Shown here piece after piece: positions 19,741-43,502 of a stretch of 52,086 bases of DNA. The translations under genes and the position numbers were made by a program. The DNA is from a virus. Within the stretch, counting starts at the first letter, position 1. Each line of letters opens with the position of its first letter. The notes beneath the pieces are model-generated. The model was not told the origin of the DNA. It was given only the letters and a program-made list of their open reading frames with translations, and made no database searches. Location of the stretch: positions 20,240-72,325 of IMG/VR virus record IMGVR_UViG_3300002483_000007. One strand, 5' to 3'.

Positions 19741-20394
19741 TTAATCTAAGTCAACAACTGCTTTTATCTTTTGTATTTCTTTATGCTGTTCCTGGATAAC
19801 CTGGATGAGGAAAGGAATGATTTGTGTATAAGAAACAGATTTAACGCCTTCGTCATTTGTTGAAACAATATCTGGTAATATTTCTTCTACATCTTGAGCA
19901 ATAACACCATAAGCTTTATTTCCATTATCTTTCCATGTAAAGCTTACCGGTACAATTTTATTAATAACGTTAATTGCATCAACTAAAGATTCAATATTAT
20001 CTTTCTTGTTTTTATCTGATAAAGAATTATAGTCAGTTGAATTTAGTTGACCCGTTGACGGATTAAAGAATAGCTTCGTACTCGAAACATTTAACGCGTT
20101 ATCTGAACCAGATGTAATATTTGTAAGTGTAGGGTAGAAAGAAGCATTAGTTGCTGAGTCGTCTGCAATACTTGTATTCGCAGCGAATCCACCTGTACTT
20201 ATTGTTAAGCTTAAATAATCTGAATCAATGATTCCTTTTACATAATCCGAATCAATTGAGTTGAGGGCTGAAACTAGATTACTTTTGGTCGGTGTTGTAA
20301 GTTGAATAATGTCACCGACGTCGGATCCGACTTTATTAAAGTCAGTTACCCACGCTCCAAAAGTATCTAATAGACCAATGCTTGTGACTGCCAT
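19741..20394 (-). CDS. Short tail fibre with C-terminal S74 chaperone domain
   Basis: 217 residues. The C-terminal 95 residues are an S74 intramolecular chaperone: NSLSDKNKKDNI holds Ser126 and Lys131 in the spacing of the self-cleaving dyad, followed by FTWKDNGNKAYGVIAQDVEEILPDIV and a terminal coiled coil. The 120 N-terminal residues have TESL-free short beta motifs and the DSDY repeats NSIDSDYVKGIIDSDYLSL. The start overlaps the stop of the 74-residue gene. A perfect late-promoter octamer at 20543 inside that gene may add expression. Cleavage before Ser126 would release a chaperone of about 10 kDa. Confidence 0.82.
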   Translation of the reverse strand: MAVTSIGLLDTFGAWVTDFNKVGSDVGDIIQLTTPTKSNLVSALNSIDSDYVKGIIDSDYLSLTISTGGFAANTSIADDSATNASFYPTLTNITSGSDNALNVSSTKLFFNPSTGQLNSTDYNSLSDKNKKDNIESLVDAINVINKIVPVSFTWKDNGNKAYGVIAQDVEEILPDIVSTNDEGVKSVSYTQIIPFLIQVIQEQHKEIQKIKAVVDLD

Positions 20395-37353: not shown

Positions 37354-38076
37354 TTATGATCTCAATGCTTGATTGAATGCATTTACCACATCGCTTAAAG
37401 CTCTCGGTTTAATTACTTTAATAGATCTTAATGCATCGTTTGATGCTATGTGTCTATCTAAATGAGTTATTTCTGCAAGAGATGACGCATTACCTACAGC
37501 CGGATCAATGTCTACATACTGACCCGATGAATTCTCATAATGATGAACAGCATTATATTCTCGTGATGCTGCTGAAAGAGTTACCGATTGAACTGTATCG
37601 CCGACAGTTGACGTAATTACTTCGGTTGATGTAAATGTATGCGCACCTTCAACAATGATTTGCCCAAACTCAAGTCTGCGTTTTATAATAGTACCAGTTG
37701 CACCAGACGATGAACCGGATACTGTTTGTCCTGGTAAAAATATTCCAGTTAGAACATTAGTGGTTGTAAGAGTAGTATTCGGAAAATGTTCTTGCGCCAT
37801 TTCTTCAATCTTTATATTTCCTAGTGGCCAACCCTGATCTTTCAAAGTATCGTTTAGAAGATAAAAAGTCCAATGGTAGTGAGGTGATCCGTATAACTTA
37901 AATGATACGGTGTCTGGTCTATCGCCATCTAAAACGTTATAAAACTGGTAAAAGTTAACGTCATCTTTTATCTGATCAATAATATCTACATATGCAGAAA
38001 TATCTTGGAAAGCAGTTGCACTTTCTTCATTACCAAACTTATATGTTACATTAGGAAAGTTATAAAAGTATGCCAT
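37354..38076 (-). CDS. 53: Baseplate wedge protein gp53
   Basis: 240 residues; T4 gp53 has 196. The first 85 residues are diagnostic: YFYNFPNVTYKFG, DISAYVDIIDQIKDDVNFYQFYNV, GDRPDTVSFKLYGSPHYHWTFYLLND and WPLG. In T4, gp53 completes the wedge and links neighbouring wedges. The middle has an extra beta domain with GQTVSGSSSGATGTIIKRRLE, a sequence type common in marine phage gp53. The start overlaps the stop of gp48 and the stop lies one base before the start of the hub gene. Confidence 0.9.
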   Translation of the reverse strand: MAYFYNFPNVTYKFGNEESATAFQDISAYVDIIDQIKDDVNFYQFYNVLDGDRPDTVSFKLYGSPHYHWTFYLLNDTLKDQGWPLGNIKIEEMAQEHFPNTTLTTTNVLTGIFLPGQTVSGSSSGATGTIIKRRLEFGQIIVEGAHTFTSTEVITSTVGDTVQSVTLSAASREYNAVHHYENSSGQYVDIDPAVGNASSLAEITHLDRHIASNDALRSIKVIKPRALSDVVNAFNQALRS

Positions 38077-38990
38077 TAGAAACCCTCCACAATATCTTGT
38101 TTATTAAGCGTTCTTTCTTCTACGAATGCAAGTGTAATATCTACCTCTGAAGGTTTACCATCAACATGGAAACCCATATTCCCAGGGTTATATGTCGTAC
38201 TTATATCTTTAAGATAAACAGGTTTAATTTTTGTTGCCACTTGTTGATTATTATATGACATTTCAATATCAAATAAGTTAGGAAAGTTATATCCAATAAT
38301 TTCAGTACCGCCACCAGTTACTGAAGGATAAAGTTCAGTTCTAAAGAACTTAATAATTTTATCAATCTCTTCTGCTTCATCTGCGGAATTTGCAATCATT
38401 TTAAATTGAAACGCAAAGTTACGAATACCTACGGCTGTAAACAACGTACGTTTATTTGGATTAATTGTAGTTCTTAATGTAGACTGCGCCACCTGTCCAC
38501 CAGTTTCCCCAGCGAATCTTCGAGCAACTCTTGTCGCAGCCAGTCGTGCAGCTTCTTGATCGAGGCCTGTATTTCCAAGCATCAAATCATTAAAAGTTGA
38601 TAAACTTTGACGACCAGCAGCTGCTATTGTTTGTCCAATATTGTCTCCTTGATTAATACTAGCTTCAGCTGTACCACCTATAACACCGAGTGATGCGTCT
38701 GTGTATTCAGCATTGTCTCTAAATGAAATTGCTTGTGGCAAATATAAAGACACTCTCTGTCCTGAATAGTTTCTTTTATTTGATTGTACACCGTACTTAT
38801 AGTTATGTCTATCTCCAATTTCAACACCATCGTTTTGATTGGGATTTTCTGCATTAAACTCTTCAATAGTACTATTAACTAGCTTTTTAAAACCTACAAG
38901 GCTAACTTCAGGAACAGGTGGAGCAAAAGCACGAAATGTAATTCGTCCTTGATAATCTCGTTGATCGTCTTTTGGGAATCTTAGTGCCAT
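38076..38990 (-). CDS. 48: Baseplate tail-tube cap gp48
   Basis: 304 residues from the ATG at 38990 (MALRFPKDDQRDYQG). The frame is open for 44 more codons upstream, but those overlap the divergent gp4 gene and its promoter and have no ribosome site, so the shorter form is preferred. gp48-type features are the DYQGRITFRAF opening and the tube-like end (SADEAEEIDKIIKFFRTELYP, SYNNQQVATKIKPVYLKDIST, VDITLAFVEERTL). In T4, gp48 caps the hub and starts tube growth with gp54. It is the first gene of the long minus-strand baseplate operon, with a late promoter 36 bases upstream. Confidence 0.85.
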   Translation of the reverse strand: MALRFPKDDQRDYQGRITFRAFAPPVPEVSLVGFKKLVNSTIEEFNAENPNQNDGVEIGDRHNYKYGVQSNKRNYSGQRVSLYLPQAISFRDNAEYTDASLGVIGGTAEASINQGDNIGQTIAAAGRQSLSTFNDLMLGNTGLDQEAARLAATRVARRFAGETGGQVAQSTLRTTINPNKRTLFTAVGIRNFAFQFKMIANSADEAEEIDKIIKFFRTELYPSVTGGGTEIIGYNFPNLFDIEMSYNNQQVATKIKPVYLKDISTTYNPGNMGFHVDGKPSEVDITLAFVEERTLNKQDIVEGF

Positions 38991-38999
38991 ATTGTACCT

Positions 39000-39007
39000 A
39001 ATAAATA
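39000..39007 (+). promoter_or_regulatory. Late-promoter-like box for gp4
   Basis: AATAAATA on the plus strand, one mismatch from TATAAATA and fitting the looser late motif reported for T4-like cyanophages. It lies 36 bases before the GTG start of gp4, divergent from the gp48 promoter. Confidence 0.6.
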
Positions 39008-39025
39008 GTATGAAATCTTTAACAT

Positions 39026-39033
39026 TATTTATA
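39026..39033 (-). promoter_or_regulatory. T4-type late promoter box for the gp48 operon
   Basis: Exact TATAAATA on the minus strand, 35 bases before the ATG of gp48 (38990). It sits downstream of the plus-strand box, so the two transcripts would overlap at their 5' ends. Confidence 0.8.
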
Positions 39034-39043
39034 AGGAAACTCG

Positions 39044-39532
39044 GTGGCTTATTCTGGTCGTTATAAAGTAAAAAATCGCAAGAAGTATAATGGTAATCCA
39101 GACAGTGTAGTTTTTCGATCAATGTGGGAAAGACACTGCTTCAAGTGGTGTGATGAGAACTCAGAAATAAAAGCGTGGTCCAGCGAAGAGGTTGTGATAC
39201 CATATTTCTATGAAGTGGATAAAAAGTATCATAGGTACTTTATGGATTTAAAGATTACATTTAAAACAGGTAAAACTATTCTTGTTGAAATCAAACCAGA
39301 AAAAGAAACACAACCACCAAAAAGACCTGACAAGTCAAAGCGTTATATTAGTGAGGCAATGACTTATGTTAAGAATAGAAATAAATGGGAAGCGGCAAGT
39401 AAATATGCAAAAGATAATAACTGGGGATTCCAGATCTGGACTGAAAAGACTCTTACAAAGATGGGAATCATGCCAAAACAAATAAAGCCATTGAAGCCAC
39501 TTAAGCCTTACCGAAAGAAAAAGAAACAATGA
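39044..39532 (+). CDS. 4: Head completion protein gp4
   Basis: 162 residues, read from a GTG start six bases after AAGGAA; T4 gp4 has about 150. Key conserved parts are MAYSGRYKVKN, SVVFRSMWERHCFKWCD, AWSSEEVVIPYFYEVDKKYHRYFMD and TILVEIKPEKETQPP, then RRYI-type KRYISEAMTY and NNWGFQIWTEKTL. The fold is nuclease-like (Glu and Lys in VEIKPEK match the E-x-K signature), and in T4 the protein is needed to finish heads before tail joining. First gene of a five-gene plus-strand unit. Confidence 0.9.
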   Translation: MAYSGRYKVKNRKKYNGNPDSVVFRSMWERHCFKWCDENSEIKAWSSEEVVIPYFYEVDKKYHRYFMDLKITFKTGKTILVEIKPEKETQPPKRPDKSKRYISEAMTYVKNRNKWEAASKYAKDNNWGFQIWTEKTLTKMGIMPKQIKPLKPLKPYRKKKKQ

Positions 39533-39554: not shown

Positions 39555-40139
39555 ATGAGTAACTTATTCCAAACATTAGAATTCGAAGCTTTTAGAGCTG
39601 GAATTACGCCAAGAACACAGGAATCTCGAGATTGGTTTCGTAAGAAAGCCCAAACAATGAGGCGTGTCAATCGTAATCAGTTAATGAAAGAAGATCCAAT
39701 TGAACTATCGAATCGTCAAGTCGTTGGTTCAATGTATATGTTTTTCTATGATCCTAAGCTTAAGAAAGAACTTCCATACTATGATTCATTCCCGTTGGTG
39801 ATTGTAATAGGACCAGCCGAAGGTGGATTCCTCGGCATGAATTTGCACTATCTACCTCCAATATTAAGAGCAAAGTTTTTGGATAGCTTGCTTGATGTTG
39901 CGAGTAATAATAAGTATGATGATACGACTAGGTTTAGAGTTTCATATTCAATATTAAAAAAAGCAGCAAAGTTTAAATACTTCAAGCCATGTGTTAAACA
40001 TTACCTTTCAAACAATGTTAAAAGTAGGCTTGCCCGTGTACCCGCGCCTGAGTGGGAGATCGCTACATTCTTACCAACAGCAGATTTTCAAAAATCAGGT
40101 AAATCTTCTGTATATAGAGATTCAAGGAAAATGATCTGA
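39555..40139 (+). CDS. Conserved T4-like protein of unknown function
   Basis: 194 residues; N-terminus SNLFQTLEFEAFRAGITPRTQESRDWF, with core SMYMFFYDPKLKKELPYYDSFP, LVIVIGPAEGGFLGMNLHYL and FKYFKPCVKHYLSNNVKSRLARVP, and EWEIATFLPTADFQK. I know this pattern from T4-like marine phages, where the gene lies near gp4 and tail genes, but not a confirmed function. It is basic (many Lys and Arg), so contact with DNA or a role in assembly is possible. There is no Shine-Dalgarno, but a late box just upstream. Its stop overlaps the next ATG (TGATG). Confidence 0.75.
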   Translation: MSNLFQTLEFEAFRAGITPRTQESRDWFRKKAQTMRRVNRNQLMKEDPIELSNRQVVGSMYMFFYDPKLKKELPYYDSFPLVIVIGPAEGGFLGMNLHYLPPILRAKFLDSLLDVASNNKYDDTTRFRVSYSILKKAAKFKYFKPCVKHYLSNNVKSRLARVPAPEWEIATFLPTADFQKSGKSSVYRDSRKMI

Positions 40140-40849
40140 TGTCAATTAACATAGAACAATTCAAAGGTGAAATATCTGCAAAGAATGGACCAGCAAGATC
40201 CAATCTTTTTATGATTGAACTACCAGCTTTTCCAGGAGCCACGACTCGAGCAGTTAACTTACTATGTAGAGATGTAAACTTGCCAGGAAGACAGGTAGCT
40301 ACATATGATAAAGAGATCGGAACAAAGAGAGAAAAAGTTGCTTACGGCGCGGTTAGCGATGATGTAAGCTTATCTTTTCTTTTATTGAATGATTATGGGA
40401 TAAAAGAATACTTTGAAAAGTGGCAACAAGCTGCATATAATCCGCACACATATCAAATCGGATATAAAAATGATTACGTTCGTAATGTTAGAATACACCA
40501 ACTTAAAAAGGGAGTGGGCTTACCGGTTTACTCAACGCCTCTAGGAATACCTAGATTGCCAGAAATCATACAGCAACGGTTACCTCGAATAGGACCATTT
40601 GATTTTGCTCAAGGTGAGTTCAATCTGGATTTCTTGCTTGGTGACAATAAAATTTATTCATGTCAACTCGAAAAAGCTTTCCCTGTAACTATGGAAGCAA
40701 TACCACTTAACAACGAATTAGACGGATTAGTAGAACTTAGAATTCAACTAGCATACACAAGATGGACTTCAAACTTTACTGATCAAAACCCACTTGAAAA
40801 CTTTGTACAAACTGCAATAGGAACAGTACTGACACGAATTTTTAACTAA
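40139..40849 (+). CDS. Baseplate tail-tube initiator, gp54-like
   Basis: 236 residues. The tube-protein pattern is seen in ARSNLFMIELPAFPGATTRAVNLLCRDVNLPGRQV, read as SNLFMIELPAFPG and LLCRDVNLPGRQV, then VSLSFLLLNDYGIKEYFEKWQ, and the closing strands LEKAFPVTMEAIPLNNELDG and VELRIQLAYTRW. gp19-fold proteins (gp19, gp54, gp48) share this arrangement. Because the main tube gene gp19 is normally beside gp18 in another part of such genomes, and this one lies between gp4 and gp26-gp29, gp54 is the more likely identity. A second tube paralogue cannot be excluded. Confidence 0.72.
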   Translation: MSINIEQFKGEISAKNGPARSNLFMIELPAFPGATTRAVNLLCRDVNLPGRQVATYDKEIGTKREKVAYGAVSDDVSLSFLLLNDYGIKEYFEKWQQAAYNPHTYQIGYKNDYVRNVRIHQLKKGVGLPVYSTPLGIPRLPEIIQQRLPRIGPFDFAQGEFNLDFLLGDNKIYSCQLEKAFPVTMEAIPLNNELDGLVELRIQLAYTRWTSNFTDQNPLENFVQTAIGTVLTRIFN

Positions 40850-40863
40850 AGGATGATATAGTT

Positions 40864-41577
40864 ATGGCACTACCTAAGATTAATGATACGCCAAATTATG
40901 AGATGACGATTCCATCTACTGGAAAAGGTGTTTCATTTAGACCGTTCTTAACAAAAGAACAAAAAATATTATTGATTGCACTTGAAACACAAGATCAAAG
41001 AAAGATACTTTCAGCGATTACTGACACGATTAAAGCATGTGCACCTGATATTGATGTAAATAGATTGACTACGTTTGATGTTGAATACGCATTCACACAG
41101 ATGAGAGCGAAATCAGTTGGAGAGAAATCACATGTTGGTTTGAAATGTAAAGAGTGTGAACACCAAAACGAAGTAACAATTGATCTGGAAGAAATAAAAG
41201 TAGATATTCCAGATAAAAAGAATATGATGATTGAGTTAAATGATACTTGGACTTTGAAGATGAAATATCCGAATTACGTTTCGGTATTAAATAACGATGC
41301 TATGATTAACAGTGACTCGCCAACTAATACAATTATGAATATGATTGCTAGTTGCTTGGATTCATTAATGAGTGAAGAAGACAATATCAAGTTTGCTGAT
41401 GAAAGCAAAAAGACGGTGAATGACTTTATTGATAATCTAAACGCTGAACAGTTTGAAAAGATTATGAATTTTGTTCAAGATATGCCACAGTTAAAACACG
41501 AAGTTAAATATGTTTGTGAAAAGTGCGAGACTGAAAATAATTTTACATTACAAGGAATGAATGATTTTTTCGCGTAA
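40864..41577 (+). CDS. 26: gp26 tail/baseplate assembly protein, zero-frame product
   Basis: 237 residues of the T4 gp26 type (T4_baseplate family): ALPKINDTPNYEMTIPSTGK, SFRPFLTKEQKILLIALET, and FDVEYAFTQMRAKSVGE. A zinc-ribbon-like pair of CxxC motifs is seen, Cys95/Cys98 (CKEC) and Cys218/Cys221 (CEKC). The gene ends GMNDFFA with TTT TTC GCG TAA, and the bases just before the stop form a -1 slippery heptamer that leads into an extension frame. It lies immediately before the tape-measure-like gene, like the frameshifted tail chaperones of other phages. In T4, gp26 is needed for hub assembly. Ribosome site AAAGGATG. Confidence 0.88.
   Translation: MALPKINDTPNYEMTIPSTGKGVSFRPFLTKEQKILLIALETQDQRKILSAITDTIKACAPDIDVNRLTTFDVEYAFTQMRAKSVGEKSHVGLKCKECEHQNEVTIDLEEIKVDIPDKKNMMIELNDTWTLKMKYPNYVSVLNNDAMINSDSPTNTIMNMIASCLDSLMSEEDNIKFADESKKTVNDFIDNLNAEQFEKIMNFVQDMPQLKHEVKYVCEKCETENNFTLQGMNDFFA
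41565..41571 (+). other. Slippery heptamer T_TTT_TTC, candidate -1 frameshift site
   Basis: Seven bases in the X_XXY_YYZ pattern, in register with the gp26 frame (GAT TTT TTC). Slipping back one base gives TTT TTT and then enters an open frame of 62 codons that ends at 41759. The gp26 stop follows three bases after the heptamer. Confidence 0.7.
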
Positions 41578-41759
41578 ACCTCTCACATGATTCGTTAGTG
41601 AATTACTATCAAGTGAATTTTAGATTGATGTACTCATTTAAATTATCACTAACGGAACTTGAAAATATGATGCCTTGGGAGAGGGAGGTGTACCTTACAT
41701 TATTAACACAAGAACTAGAACAAGAAAGACAAGCTGCTCAACAGCAACAATTTCGCTAA
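41571..41759 (+). CDS. gp26 extension frame reached by -1 frameshift
   Basis: Open frame of 62 codons after the heptamer (RVNLSHDSLVNYYQ..., ...SLTELENMMPWEREVYLTLL..., Gln-rich end) closed by TAA 12 bases before the tape-measure ATG. In this frame a TGA lies just before the heptamer, and there is no in-frame start with a good ribosome site near its beginning, so it is best explained as a C-terminal extension, giving a fusion of about 298 residues. The LTELENMMPWERE segment resembles the second domain of P2 E+E'-type tail chaperones. An independent start at the internal ATG pair near 41667 is the alternative. Confidence 0.65.
   Translation, partial: RVNLSHDSLVNYYQVNFRLMYSFKLSLTELENMMPWEREVYLTLLTQELEQERQAAQQQQFR
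41593..41654 (+). other. Inverted repeat downstream of the slippery site
   Basis: cgttagtga (41593-41601) pairs perfectly with tcactaacg (41646-41654), a nine-base stem around a loop of 44 bases that could form more structure. It begins 21 bases after the heptamer, somewhat farther than the usual 5 to 9 bases for a frameshift stimulator. Confidence 0.6.
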
Positions 41760-41771
41760 GGATAAAGAAAA

Positions 41772-43502
41772 ATGGCTTCATTAGACGCAGTCGTAGATCA
41801 GTTAAAGATACAGAATAAAATAACACTAGATCTAAGGAAATCTCTTGCAGGAAAATCTTCGGCTGATAGTCTTCAGGCGCTAGAAGATAAAAGTGAAGTA
41901 TTGCCTGGCTCTGCTGCAATGCAAAACTTTGAGGCTGGACAAAAAGTAGGAGAGAAATTTGATCTAGGATTTTTAATGAATCCTATGATATTACTTAAAC
42001 CTTTATTAGTGGCAGCTGCAGGTGTTGCAGCGGCATTCGCCGGCCTTAGAGGTTGGGAAGTAAAAGTTCTTAAAAATATTGATACGATAGGTGATGTTCT
42101 TAAAACAGCGTTTACTCCAATTACAAATATTGCTAATAAACTTACAACAAGTTTTACTAGTTTTGTTGATGATTTAACTCGTGGAACATTGGCTCGGTTT
42201 GGCATTGATCCAGAGACTGGTAAAATGGCAAGGGGCGCAAAAGGCCAATTTACTGGTAAAGAAGTAAAGACCACAGCGCAAATGATACAAGAATCAATGC
42301 AGGCTTTAAAGACTAGAGCATTTGGTTTCTTTGGTCTAGGTCCAGCTGGTGGATTAGCAGATGATGCTTTAAAAGCAGCTGACGGCACACCTTCAGCTAT
42401 ATCAAGAGTGACTGCAGCGTTTGGTAAGATTATGACTCCATTTAGAGCGATATACAGCGGAGTTGAAAATTTTATAACTGGACCCGGTGCAAAACTTTTT
42501 GGATTTCTTGATGGTGTCTTAGGTATCACTAAGATCGGTAGTGCGGCAGGCGGATTAGTAAAAGTTCTTGGTAAAGTTCTTTGGCCTATTGGTATTATAA
42601 TGTCATTGTTTGACGGTGTAGAAGCATGGAGGAGCGAAAATGGATCACAATACGACAAAATCACTGCTGGTATTGCTGCGACTGTTGGTGATTTTATTGG
42701 TGCTCCTTTGGATCTTTTAAAAGGATTACTAAGTTGGGTTCTTAGTAAGTTTGGGTTTGATGAAACTGCTAAGGCAATTCAAGACTTTAGCTTTGAAGAA
42801 AAGATTACCAACTTAATAAATGGCATCTTTGATTTTCCAGCAAAAGCAATAGAATGGGTTAAAACACTGTTTACTGATCCATCTGCAGCGTTAGGTGAGT
42901 TATGGACAAAACTAGTTGGTGAAGGTGGAATAATCGATATCTTATTTGCTCCAGCACGACTTGCAATTGATTGGATTACCAAGACACTTGGATTTAGAGA
43001 AGAAGATGCTCCAACATTCTCATTTGGTGCATTAATCCAAGAAGGTATTGATGGGGTAGTTGGAATGTTTAGAAAAGCGTTTGCTGCTCTTCCATCTTTT
43101 CAAGATATAAAAAATGCTATTGTTAACGCACTTCCAGCCTTCATGGTTCCAGATAGTTTTAAATCTGATGAGATGCGTATTCAAGAAAGAAAAGATGAAA
43201 TAGATGAGCATAGAGCTCAAATTGCTGAAGGTGATAACCGCTTTGGCCCTGGCAATTTATACTCAAGGGAAAAACGTATAGCTGCTTTACAAGCAGAAAT
43301 ACAAGATTTACAACCTGTGTTACAAGTTGGCGGTGGACTTACTGCTGATGAGATTGCTGCTGGTGTAAGAGAAAGACGAGCGCAAGTTGTTAATGTATAC
43401 AATAATATGAATGCAACTGGCGGAGGCGGAAATGGCGGAGGAACCGCAATGATTCTCCCCGCCACACCAACACTGGATCTTATGGATCCAGTTGCTCAGT
43501 AG
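41772..43502 (+). CDS. Tape measure / hub protein, gp29-like
   Basis: 576 residues, close to T4 gp29 (590). Hydrophobic segments such as PMILLKPLLVAAAGVAAAFAGL (about residues 71-92) and VLGKVLWPIGIIMSLFDG (about 269-286) occur between long helical stretches, as in tape-measure proteins. The C-terminal part has a charged helix (MRIQERKDEIDEHRAQIAEG, then KRIAALQAEIQDLQ) and a Gly-rich tail (NATGGGGNGGGT). It sits right after the gp26 frameshift unit, which is the classical place of a tape-measure gene. It should set tail length and pass the membrane during injection. Ribosome site AAGGAT. Confidence 0.78.
   Translation: MASLDAVVDQLKIQNKITLDLRKSLAGKSSADSLQALEDKSEVLPGSAAMQNFEAGQKVGEKFDLGFLMNPMILLKPLLVAAAGVAAAFAGLRGWEVKVLKNIDTIGDVLKTAFTPITNIANKLTTSFTSFVDDLTRGTLARFGIDPETGKMARGAKGQFTGKEVKTTAQMIQESMQALKTRAFGFFGLGPAGGLADDALKAADGTPSAISRVTAAFGKIMTPFRAIYSGVENFITGPGAKLFGFLDGVLGITKIGSAAGGLVKVLGKVLWPIGIIMSLFDGVEAWRSENGSQYDKITAGIAATVGDFIGAPLDLLKGLLSWVLSKFGFDETAKAIQDFSFEEKITNLINGIFDFPAKAIEWVKTLFTDPSAALGELWTKLVGEGGIIDILFAPARLAIDWITKTLGFREEDAPTFSFGALIQEGIDGVVGMFRKAFAALPSFQDIKNAIVNALPAFMVPDSFKSDEMRIQERKDEIDEHRAQIAEGDNRFGPGNLYSREKRIAALQAEIQDLQPVLQVGGGLTADEIAAGVRERRAQVVNVYNNMNATGGGGNGGGTAMILPATPTLDLMDPVAQ

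Follow-up and report, generated by a model that had tools for sequence, protein, structure and literature searches.

Do T4-like phages make a short and a long tail assembly chaperone from one gene, by −1 frameshifting at the end of gene 26? We addressed this question starting from a 52,086-nt stretch of viral DNA (IMG/VR record IMGVR_UViG_3300002483_000007, positions 20,240 to 72,325), hereafter called the window, in which the gp26 gene ends on a slippery heptamer. The abstract of a 2022 article by Vladimirov, Gautam and Davidson (Virology 566:9-15) reportedly names genes 26 and 51 and describes frameshifting as conserved in several T4-like groups. Frameshifting of the G-T type had been described as widely conserved "except T4" (Atkins et al. 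2016, PMC5009743). Passages of two later papers cite Vladimirov et al. 2022 for separate short and fused chaperone genes in some T4-like phages (the PRFect paper, PMC10885494) and credit it with poly-T frameshift signals in T4-like TAC-N genes (PMC12846349). The core conclusion, a short/long chaperone pair in T4-like phages, is already published as these passages present it (Vladimirov et al. 2022); what is added here is its breadth, the coding constraint and a two-sided RNA signal. For this signal, a Shine-Dalgarno (SD)-like element combined with a helix, no prior description was found in a literature search that covered Vladimirov et al. 2022 through the passages citing it.

The gp26 locus and its −1 frame

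In the window, two overlapping frames are located between the tube and tape measure genes, giving the order tail tube, gp26, extension, tape measure (Table 1). The gp26 gene ends GAT TTT TTC GCG TAA, with T_TTT_TTC in register three bases before the stop, exactly as the first-pass annotation of this DNA had claimed. The −1 frame is coding from 41571 to 41756, followed by a stop codon at 41757-41759 and by 12 bases leading to the ATG at 41772; these coordinates agree with the 62 codons and the distance given in that annotation. Its description of a TGA just before the heptamer and of the absence of a good early start also held, the earliest candidate start in this frame being a GTG located 33 nt past the heptamer start. 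No start codon was observed in the window's −1 frame ahead of the conserved N-terminal motif. The same gp26/−1 frame layout is shared by five near-identical contigs.

Of the window's 59 open frames with 100 codons or more, three carry an in-frame slippery heptamer within their last 10 codons, and only the gp26 heptamer opens into an unannotated conserved frame. On the minus strand, gene 38076-39122 has a GGGTTTC heptamer at its end (38085), which opens into the 241-codon frame of the gene that follows (37354-38076); this site is probably an ordinary stop-start overlap.

Table 1. Features of the gp26 region, in window coordinates
Feature	Position	Strand	Basis
Tail-tube-like protein, upstream of gp26	40139..40849	+	PHROG 45 tail tube, 1.3e-31
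gp26, putative short chaperone form (TAC-N), 237 aa	40864..41577	+	PF12322, PHROG 150, T4 gp26 homology
SD-like AAGGA, internal, 8 nt upstream of slippery site	41552..41556	+	Window 8-mer energy −5.4
TGA closing the −1 frame, directly upstream of heptamer	41562..41564	+	Sequence
Slippery heptamer T_TTT_TTC	41565..41571	+	In register; T_TTT_TTN in 204/204 clusters
−1 frame extension (putative TAC-C), 62 codons + stop	41571..41759	+	PHROG 634, hhalign, dN/dS, AlphaFold2
TAA, 0-frame stop of short form	41575..41577	+	Sequence
5' arm of downstream helix, CCTCTCACA, 7 nt after heptamer	41579..41587	+	Pairing, covariation
Nested inverted repeat, arms 41586-41601 / 41646-41661, inside loop of long-range helix	41586..41661	+	Arms unchanged in five closest relatives
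3' arm of long-range helix, TGGGAGAGG, Trp-Glu-Arg codons	41676..41684	+	Pairing, covariation
Tape-measure-like protein, 576 aa	41772..43502	+	Tail length tape measure: PHROG 1535, 9.8e-7; PHROG 167, 2.6e-6

Conservation, coding constraint and homology to T4 genes 26 and 51

IMG/VR was scanned six times and, together with an isolate panel, provided 370 usable loci, corresponding to 260 distinct sequences and 204 clusters, i.e., gp26 lineages with a split frame and less than 80% mutual identity. As the scans were built on conserved gp26 peptides, very distant lineages are under-represented in this sample. The first-pass annotation had proposed asking whether the heptamer and the −1 frame are conserved across T4-like relatives, and this was indeed the case: all 204 clusters exhibited T_TTT_TTN at the gp26 end and a −1 extension of 56-69 codons. 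The first six T of the heptamer were invariant, the seventh base was C, T, A or G (100, 87, 13 and 4 clusters, respectively), and the codon preceding TTT TTN ended in T in every cluster. The T-run comprised 8 T in 55 of the 204 clusters, 7 T in 32, and only 6 T in 117, including the window. In the first 79 clusters, the expected rate of a T-ending preceding codon was 0.63 and that of TTT 0.71, with a naive product of about 1e-29 that is uncorrected for relatedness. Moreover, dN/dS was 0.069 for the extension, versus 1.18 when this DNA was read in the 0 frame.

The stop closing the −1 frame was located 3-48 nt upstream of the heptamer in the 79 clusters examined, most of which had no ATG ahead of the conserved LSHD motif in this frame. 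Several lineages exhibited ATG, GTG or TTG soon after the heptamer (offset 6-15 nt), and some separate initiation is therefore possible in these. Isolates carrying both heptamer and extension include P-SSM2, S-CAM1, Mosig, Melnitz-3, KVP40, phiN3, Ps15, LPCS28 and LG08. In S-WAM1, the gp26 start appears to be placed too far downstream.

Among the lineages tested, the heptamer was missing only from Tevenvirinae (T4, Cronus) and from the Ackermannviridae-like Det7, K475 and 1.255.O. The Ackermannviridae-like gp26 relatives keep the downstream −1 extension; their gp26 genes end ATT TTC ATT TAA in Det7 (L019:3220-3400), where the extension has no early start, CTT TTT GCG TAA in K475 (L023:3190-3405) and CTT TTT CGC TAA in 1.255.O (L027:3130-3340). 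As TAATG is present in the Vibrio phages of this set, restart or a single-tRNA slip is possible there.

In library searches, gp26 matched PF12322 (T4_baseplate, 1.2e-60) and PHROG 150 (4e-66), and the extension matched PHROG 634, the T4 gp51 family (1.4e-22). A profile of nine frameshifted fusions was compared with the T4 and Cronus proteins by hhalign. It aligned with gp51 over residues 15-281 (98.5%, E 1.9e-15) and with gp26 (99.7%, E 7.7e-26), T4 gp26 covering the N-terminal part, and T4 gp26 and T4 gp51 were homologous to each other (E 1.4e-12). The extension is a homologue of the C-terminus of T4 gp51. T4 and Cronus have 26 and 51 as separate genes; the window has no separate full-length gp51 gene, only the C-terminal part, in the −1 frame. 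As the fusion aligns full length with T4 gp51 and over its N-terminal part with gp26, gp26 and its extended form would be the short and long members of a tail assembly chaperone pair. Given also the homology between T4 gp26 and gp51, T4 gp51 appears to be a complete in-frame version of the long form, written as a gene of its own. The conserved heptamer and the two alignments support the −1 frameshifted chaperone pair proposed in the first-pass annotation. The latter had also related the extension to a remnant or precursor of the T4 gene after 26; the match to the gp51 family bears out the relationship, and "ancestral state" describes it more aptly than "remnant".

T4 gp26 retains an EFFELL ending without the slippery site (codons GAG TTC TTT). 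The gp26 proteins of T4 and Cronus (L018:5803-6429 and L025:2495-3121) end GLKEFF(E/R)LL, as at the frameshift-site peptide, and their TTC TTT codons may be what is left of a former slippery site. The model of a 182-aa viral protein (BFVD A0A8S0HX62) matched gp26 over 119 columns as well as the extension, at 48% identity; this protein is possibly a natural in-frame short/long fusion.

The AlphaFold2 model of gp26 had a pLDDT of 85, and that of the extension, a helical domain, a pLDDT of 86. When the gp26 model was compared with the PDB using Foldseek, the top probability among the matches listed was that of HK97 gp13 (2ob9), a solved tail assembly chaperone (0.44; E 0.88, not significant); among viral models, the named matches were mostly T4-like gp26 (baseplate hub) proteins. 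No significant match was obtained for the extension model alone with Foldseek. A PDB sequence search gave nothing significant, and the Rfam search returned no relevant family.

RNA elements flanking the slippery site

Upstream of the heptamer, the anti-SD pairing energy exhibited a sharp peak at a distance of 8 nt, with a mean of about −6.6 kcal/mol for 8-mers, as compared with a gene-wide mean of 0.03 (s.d. 2.0; 79-cluster set). Across the 204 clusters, the mean was −6.65 versus −5.17 in synonymous shuffles (p 3e-18), i.e., beyond the amino-acid requirement. Glu at codon −4 was encoded by GAG in 80 and by GAA in 37, with a gene-wide GAG usage of 28%. The AAGGA of the window is a probable stimulator of the frameshift.

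Downstream, folding energy 3' of the heptamer had a mean z of −1.98, versus −0.47 in control windows (p 1.6e-12). The onset of pairing was abrupt after a 7-nt spacer, and the 5' arm (positions 15-22 from the heptamer start) was paired at 0.91, versus 0.60 in synonymous shuffles (p 4e-32). In the largest group, Leu-Ser codons pair with Trp-Glu-Arg codons (positions 112-120) at a distance of about 95 nt. A neighbouring register, at about 41679-41688, competes in the window with the one given in Table 1; pairing is long-range in both, with a combined probability of about 0.93 at the core. It reached 0.99 in a relative of the window (L008).

In an unbiased scan of all column pairs, 15/120 came first and 18/117 third; the pair in second place rested on a single sequence. 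Both 15/120 and 18/117 join third codon positions, mostly synonymous, and the compensatory swaps associate CTC with GAG and CTT with GAA, and NNC with AGG and NNT with AGA. In the 109-cluster group, the two variable pairs were Watson-Crick in 94 and 80 clusters (56 and 46 expected, respectively), and phylogenetically independent contrasts on the gp26 tree gave 11:0 and 9:0, control pairs being about even; neither the 109-cluster set nor the tree contrasts involved selection by register. In a 60-sequence set, drawn from the Leu-Ser codon group with some members omitted (several of them predicted in another register), 97.9% of helix cells were paired versus at most 70.8% when the helix was slid, with covariation scores of 0.185 versus 0.099. 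In P-SSM2-type cyanophages, this helix was replaced by a local hairpin with an identical start, in which positions 13-23 pair with 33-43 and the pair 21-35 covaries. Overall, the helix nearly always started about 7 nt past the heptamer, and its 3' partner varied among lineages (registers 135, 56, 113 and 109). RNAalifold gave no consensus on 74 mixed sequences, because the groups pair with different partners; grouping resolved this.

The nine-base inverted repeat that the first-pass annotation had noticed 3' of the site is present (CGTTAGTGA/TCACTAACG). As a candidate for the primary stimulator it was rejected, a 111-nt fold lacking the 3' arm of the long-range helix being no better than shuffles (z −0.73). 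Such a role is also not likely because the repeat is nested in the longer-range helix, which has covariation support.

A stimulatory role is the best reading of both the SD-like element and the helix, since each keeps a fixed distance from the site even as the partner of the helix changes. We consider it likely that marine T4-like chaperone frameshifting is set by a three-part signal, namely the SD-like element, T_TTT_TTN, and a helix with a fixed start at about 7 nt and a moving 3' partner, which belongs to a local hairpin in cyanophages and consists of the Trp-Glu-Arg codons, at about 95 nt, in pelagic lineages. If so, a functional RNA structure would have been rebuilt from different partners, under synonymous selection, without a change in where it lies or what it does.

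Proposed mechanism, alternatives and known systems

Taken together, gp26 and its −1 extension very probably represent the short form (TAC-N) and the long form (TAC-NC) of the tail assembly chaperone, made by a −1 slip with stimulators on both sides, T4 having lost the site. Our data show the sequence anatomy, its conservation, the coding constraint, the homology to T4 26/51 and the covariation in the helix; frameshifting itself, its rate and the chaperone function are what we infer. The majority of ribosomes would terminate at the TAA following DFFA and produce the short form, while a minority would slip back one base at T_TTT_TTC, the tRNAs on TTT TTC re-pairing with TTT TTT. Reading would then continue as NDFF-RVNLSHDSL... 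for 62 residues, producing a fusion whose junction-spanning peptide would be NDFFRVNL... in the window phage and SFFRISMAHEDLESYYK in P-SSM2. The slip would most likely be promoted by AAGGA/GAGGGA pairing with 16S rRNA 8 nt upstream and by the mRNA helix beginning 7 nt downstream. By analogy with lambda gpG/gpGT, gp26 would coat the tape measure protein and the rarer fusion would recruit tail tube subunits, both forms departing before the virion is completed. In T4, the slippery site would have been lost, and the long form encoded as the separate, full-length gene 51.

Alternatively, the extension might constitute a small, independent gene (a stand-alone gp51), translated from a start and ribosome site of its own. 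Separate short gp51 genes are annotated in the public records of P-SSM2, C48C1 and Mosig, an ATG is found at an offset of 12-15 nt in P-SSM2-like cyanophages, KVP40 and Ps15, and a gp51 of about 20% of the T4 length is listed by Sullivan 2010 (PMC3037559). However, the annotated starts vary among relatives and often exclude the conserved LSHD/YY segment, S-CAM1 and S-WAM1 have no annotation there, and the window and many marine lineages lack a start codon before the conserved N-terminus. An independent gene would, moreover, leave the invariant heptamer of the 204 clusters unexplained, and we regard it as very improbable. Slippage of RNA polymerase on the T-run, i.e., a transcriptional rather than a ribosomal event, appears scarcely less so. 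The runs of 8 and 7 T (55 and 32 clusters) would suit it, but most clusters (117), including the window, have only 6 T, which is short for efficient transcriptional slippage; in addition, the codon register does not vary, and stimulators of the ribosomal type are located on both sides of the site, at canonical distances.

A reading that concerns only the helix, and which seems unlikely to us rather than negligible, is that it is real but has another role, such as hiding a start inside the extension or tuning tape-measure translation, instead of stimulating frameshifting. The alternative register and the nested repeat in the window's close relatives do indicate several folds, but a start about 7 nt past the heptamer combined with a variable 3' partner is what a slip stimulator requires, not a masking element. 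In favour of chance or an assembly error, one may note that this genome is A+T rich, but five near-identical contigs and hundreds of divergent ones are alike and the extension is under strong purifying selection; the conservation data refute this explanation, to which we attach practically no probability.

If the ribosomal frameshift we propose occurs in these more than 200 lineages, the T4 superfamily has the chaperone frameshift in common with most long-tailed phages, and the separate genes 26 and 51 of T4 are the exception. This would explain why cyanophage "gp51" seemed to be a fifth of T4 gp51 (PMC3037559), as well as the inconsistent starts or absent annotation of the extension in public genomes. 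The conserved two-sided RNA signal also constitutes a natural series, with hundreds of variants, for how helix position and topology set the frameshift rate.

In E. coli dnaX, the SD spacing is 10 nt. Like gp26, dnaX combines an SD-like element upstream, a slippery heptamer and a stem downstream (PMC4066793, PMC5600365, PMC7282821). It differs by its A_AAA_AAG site and local stem-loop, whereas in gp26 the SD spacing is 8 nt, the stem of the largest group is long-range (about 88-nt loop), and the partner changes by lineage. The dnaX-type ranges, with an SD-like element within about 8-14 nt and a structure within 5-9 nt, include both gp26 values (8 nt and a 7-nt spacer).

Lambda gpG/gpGT and P2 E/E+E' resemble the gp26 pair in having a short form and a rarer −1 fusion, directly before the tape measure gene, with the slip at the end of the short form (PMC5009743; Xu, Hendrix & Duda). 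In lambda, the short form acts by coating the tape measure protein, and the fusion by recruiting tube subunits (PMC5009743). Unlike these systems, gp26 comprises 237 aa, with a T_TTT_TTN site and a conserved two-sided stimulator; the likeness is one of layout, no library match pointing to lambda or P2. The TACs of Vandenendeviridae and Andersonviridae, as described in passages of PMC12846349, exhibit conserved −1 frameshifting as well, on a poly-T site at the TAC-N end, before the tape measure gene; these are other phage families, with a GTTTTT motif, and the same passages mention no stimulator. Among the closest systems are also T4-like gp26/gp51, which belong to the same gene family, the frameshifting T4-like groups having the same kind of poly-T site near the TAC-N end, as presented in that paper's passages (PMC12846349). 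T4 itself, unlike the window phage, has two separate genes.
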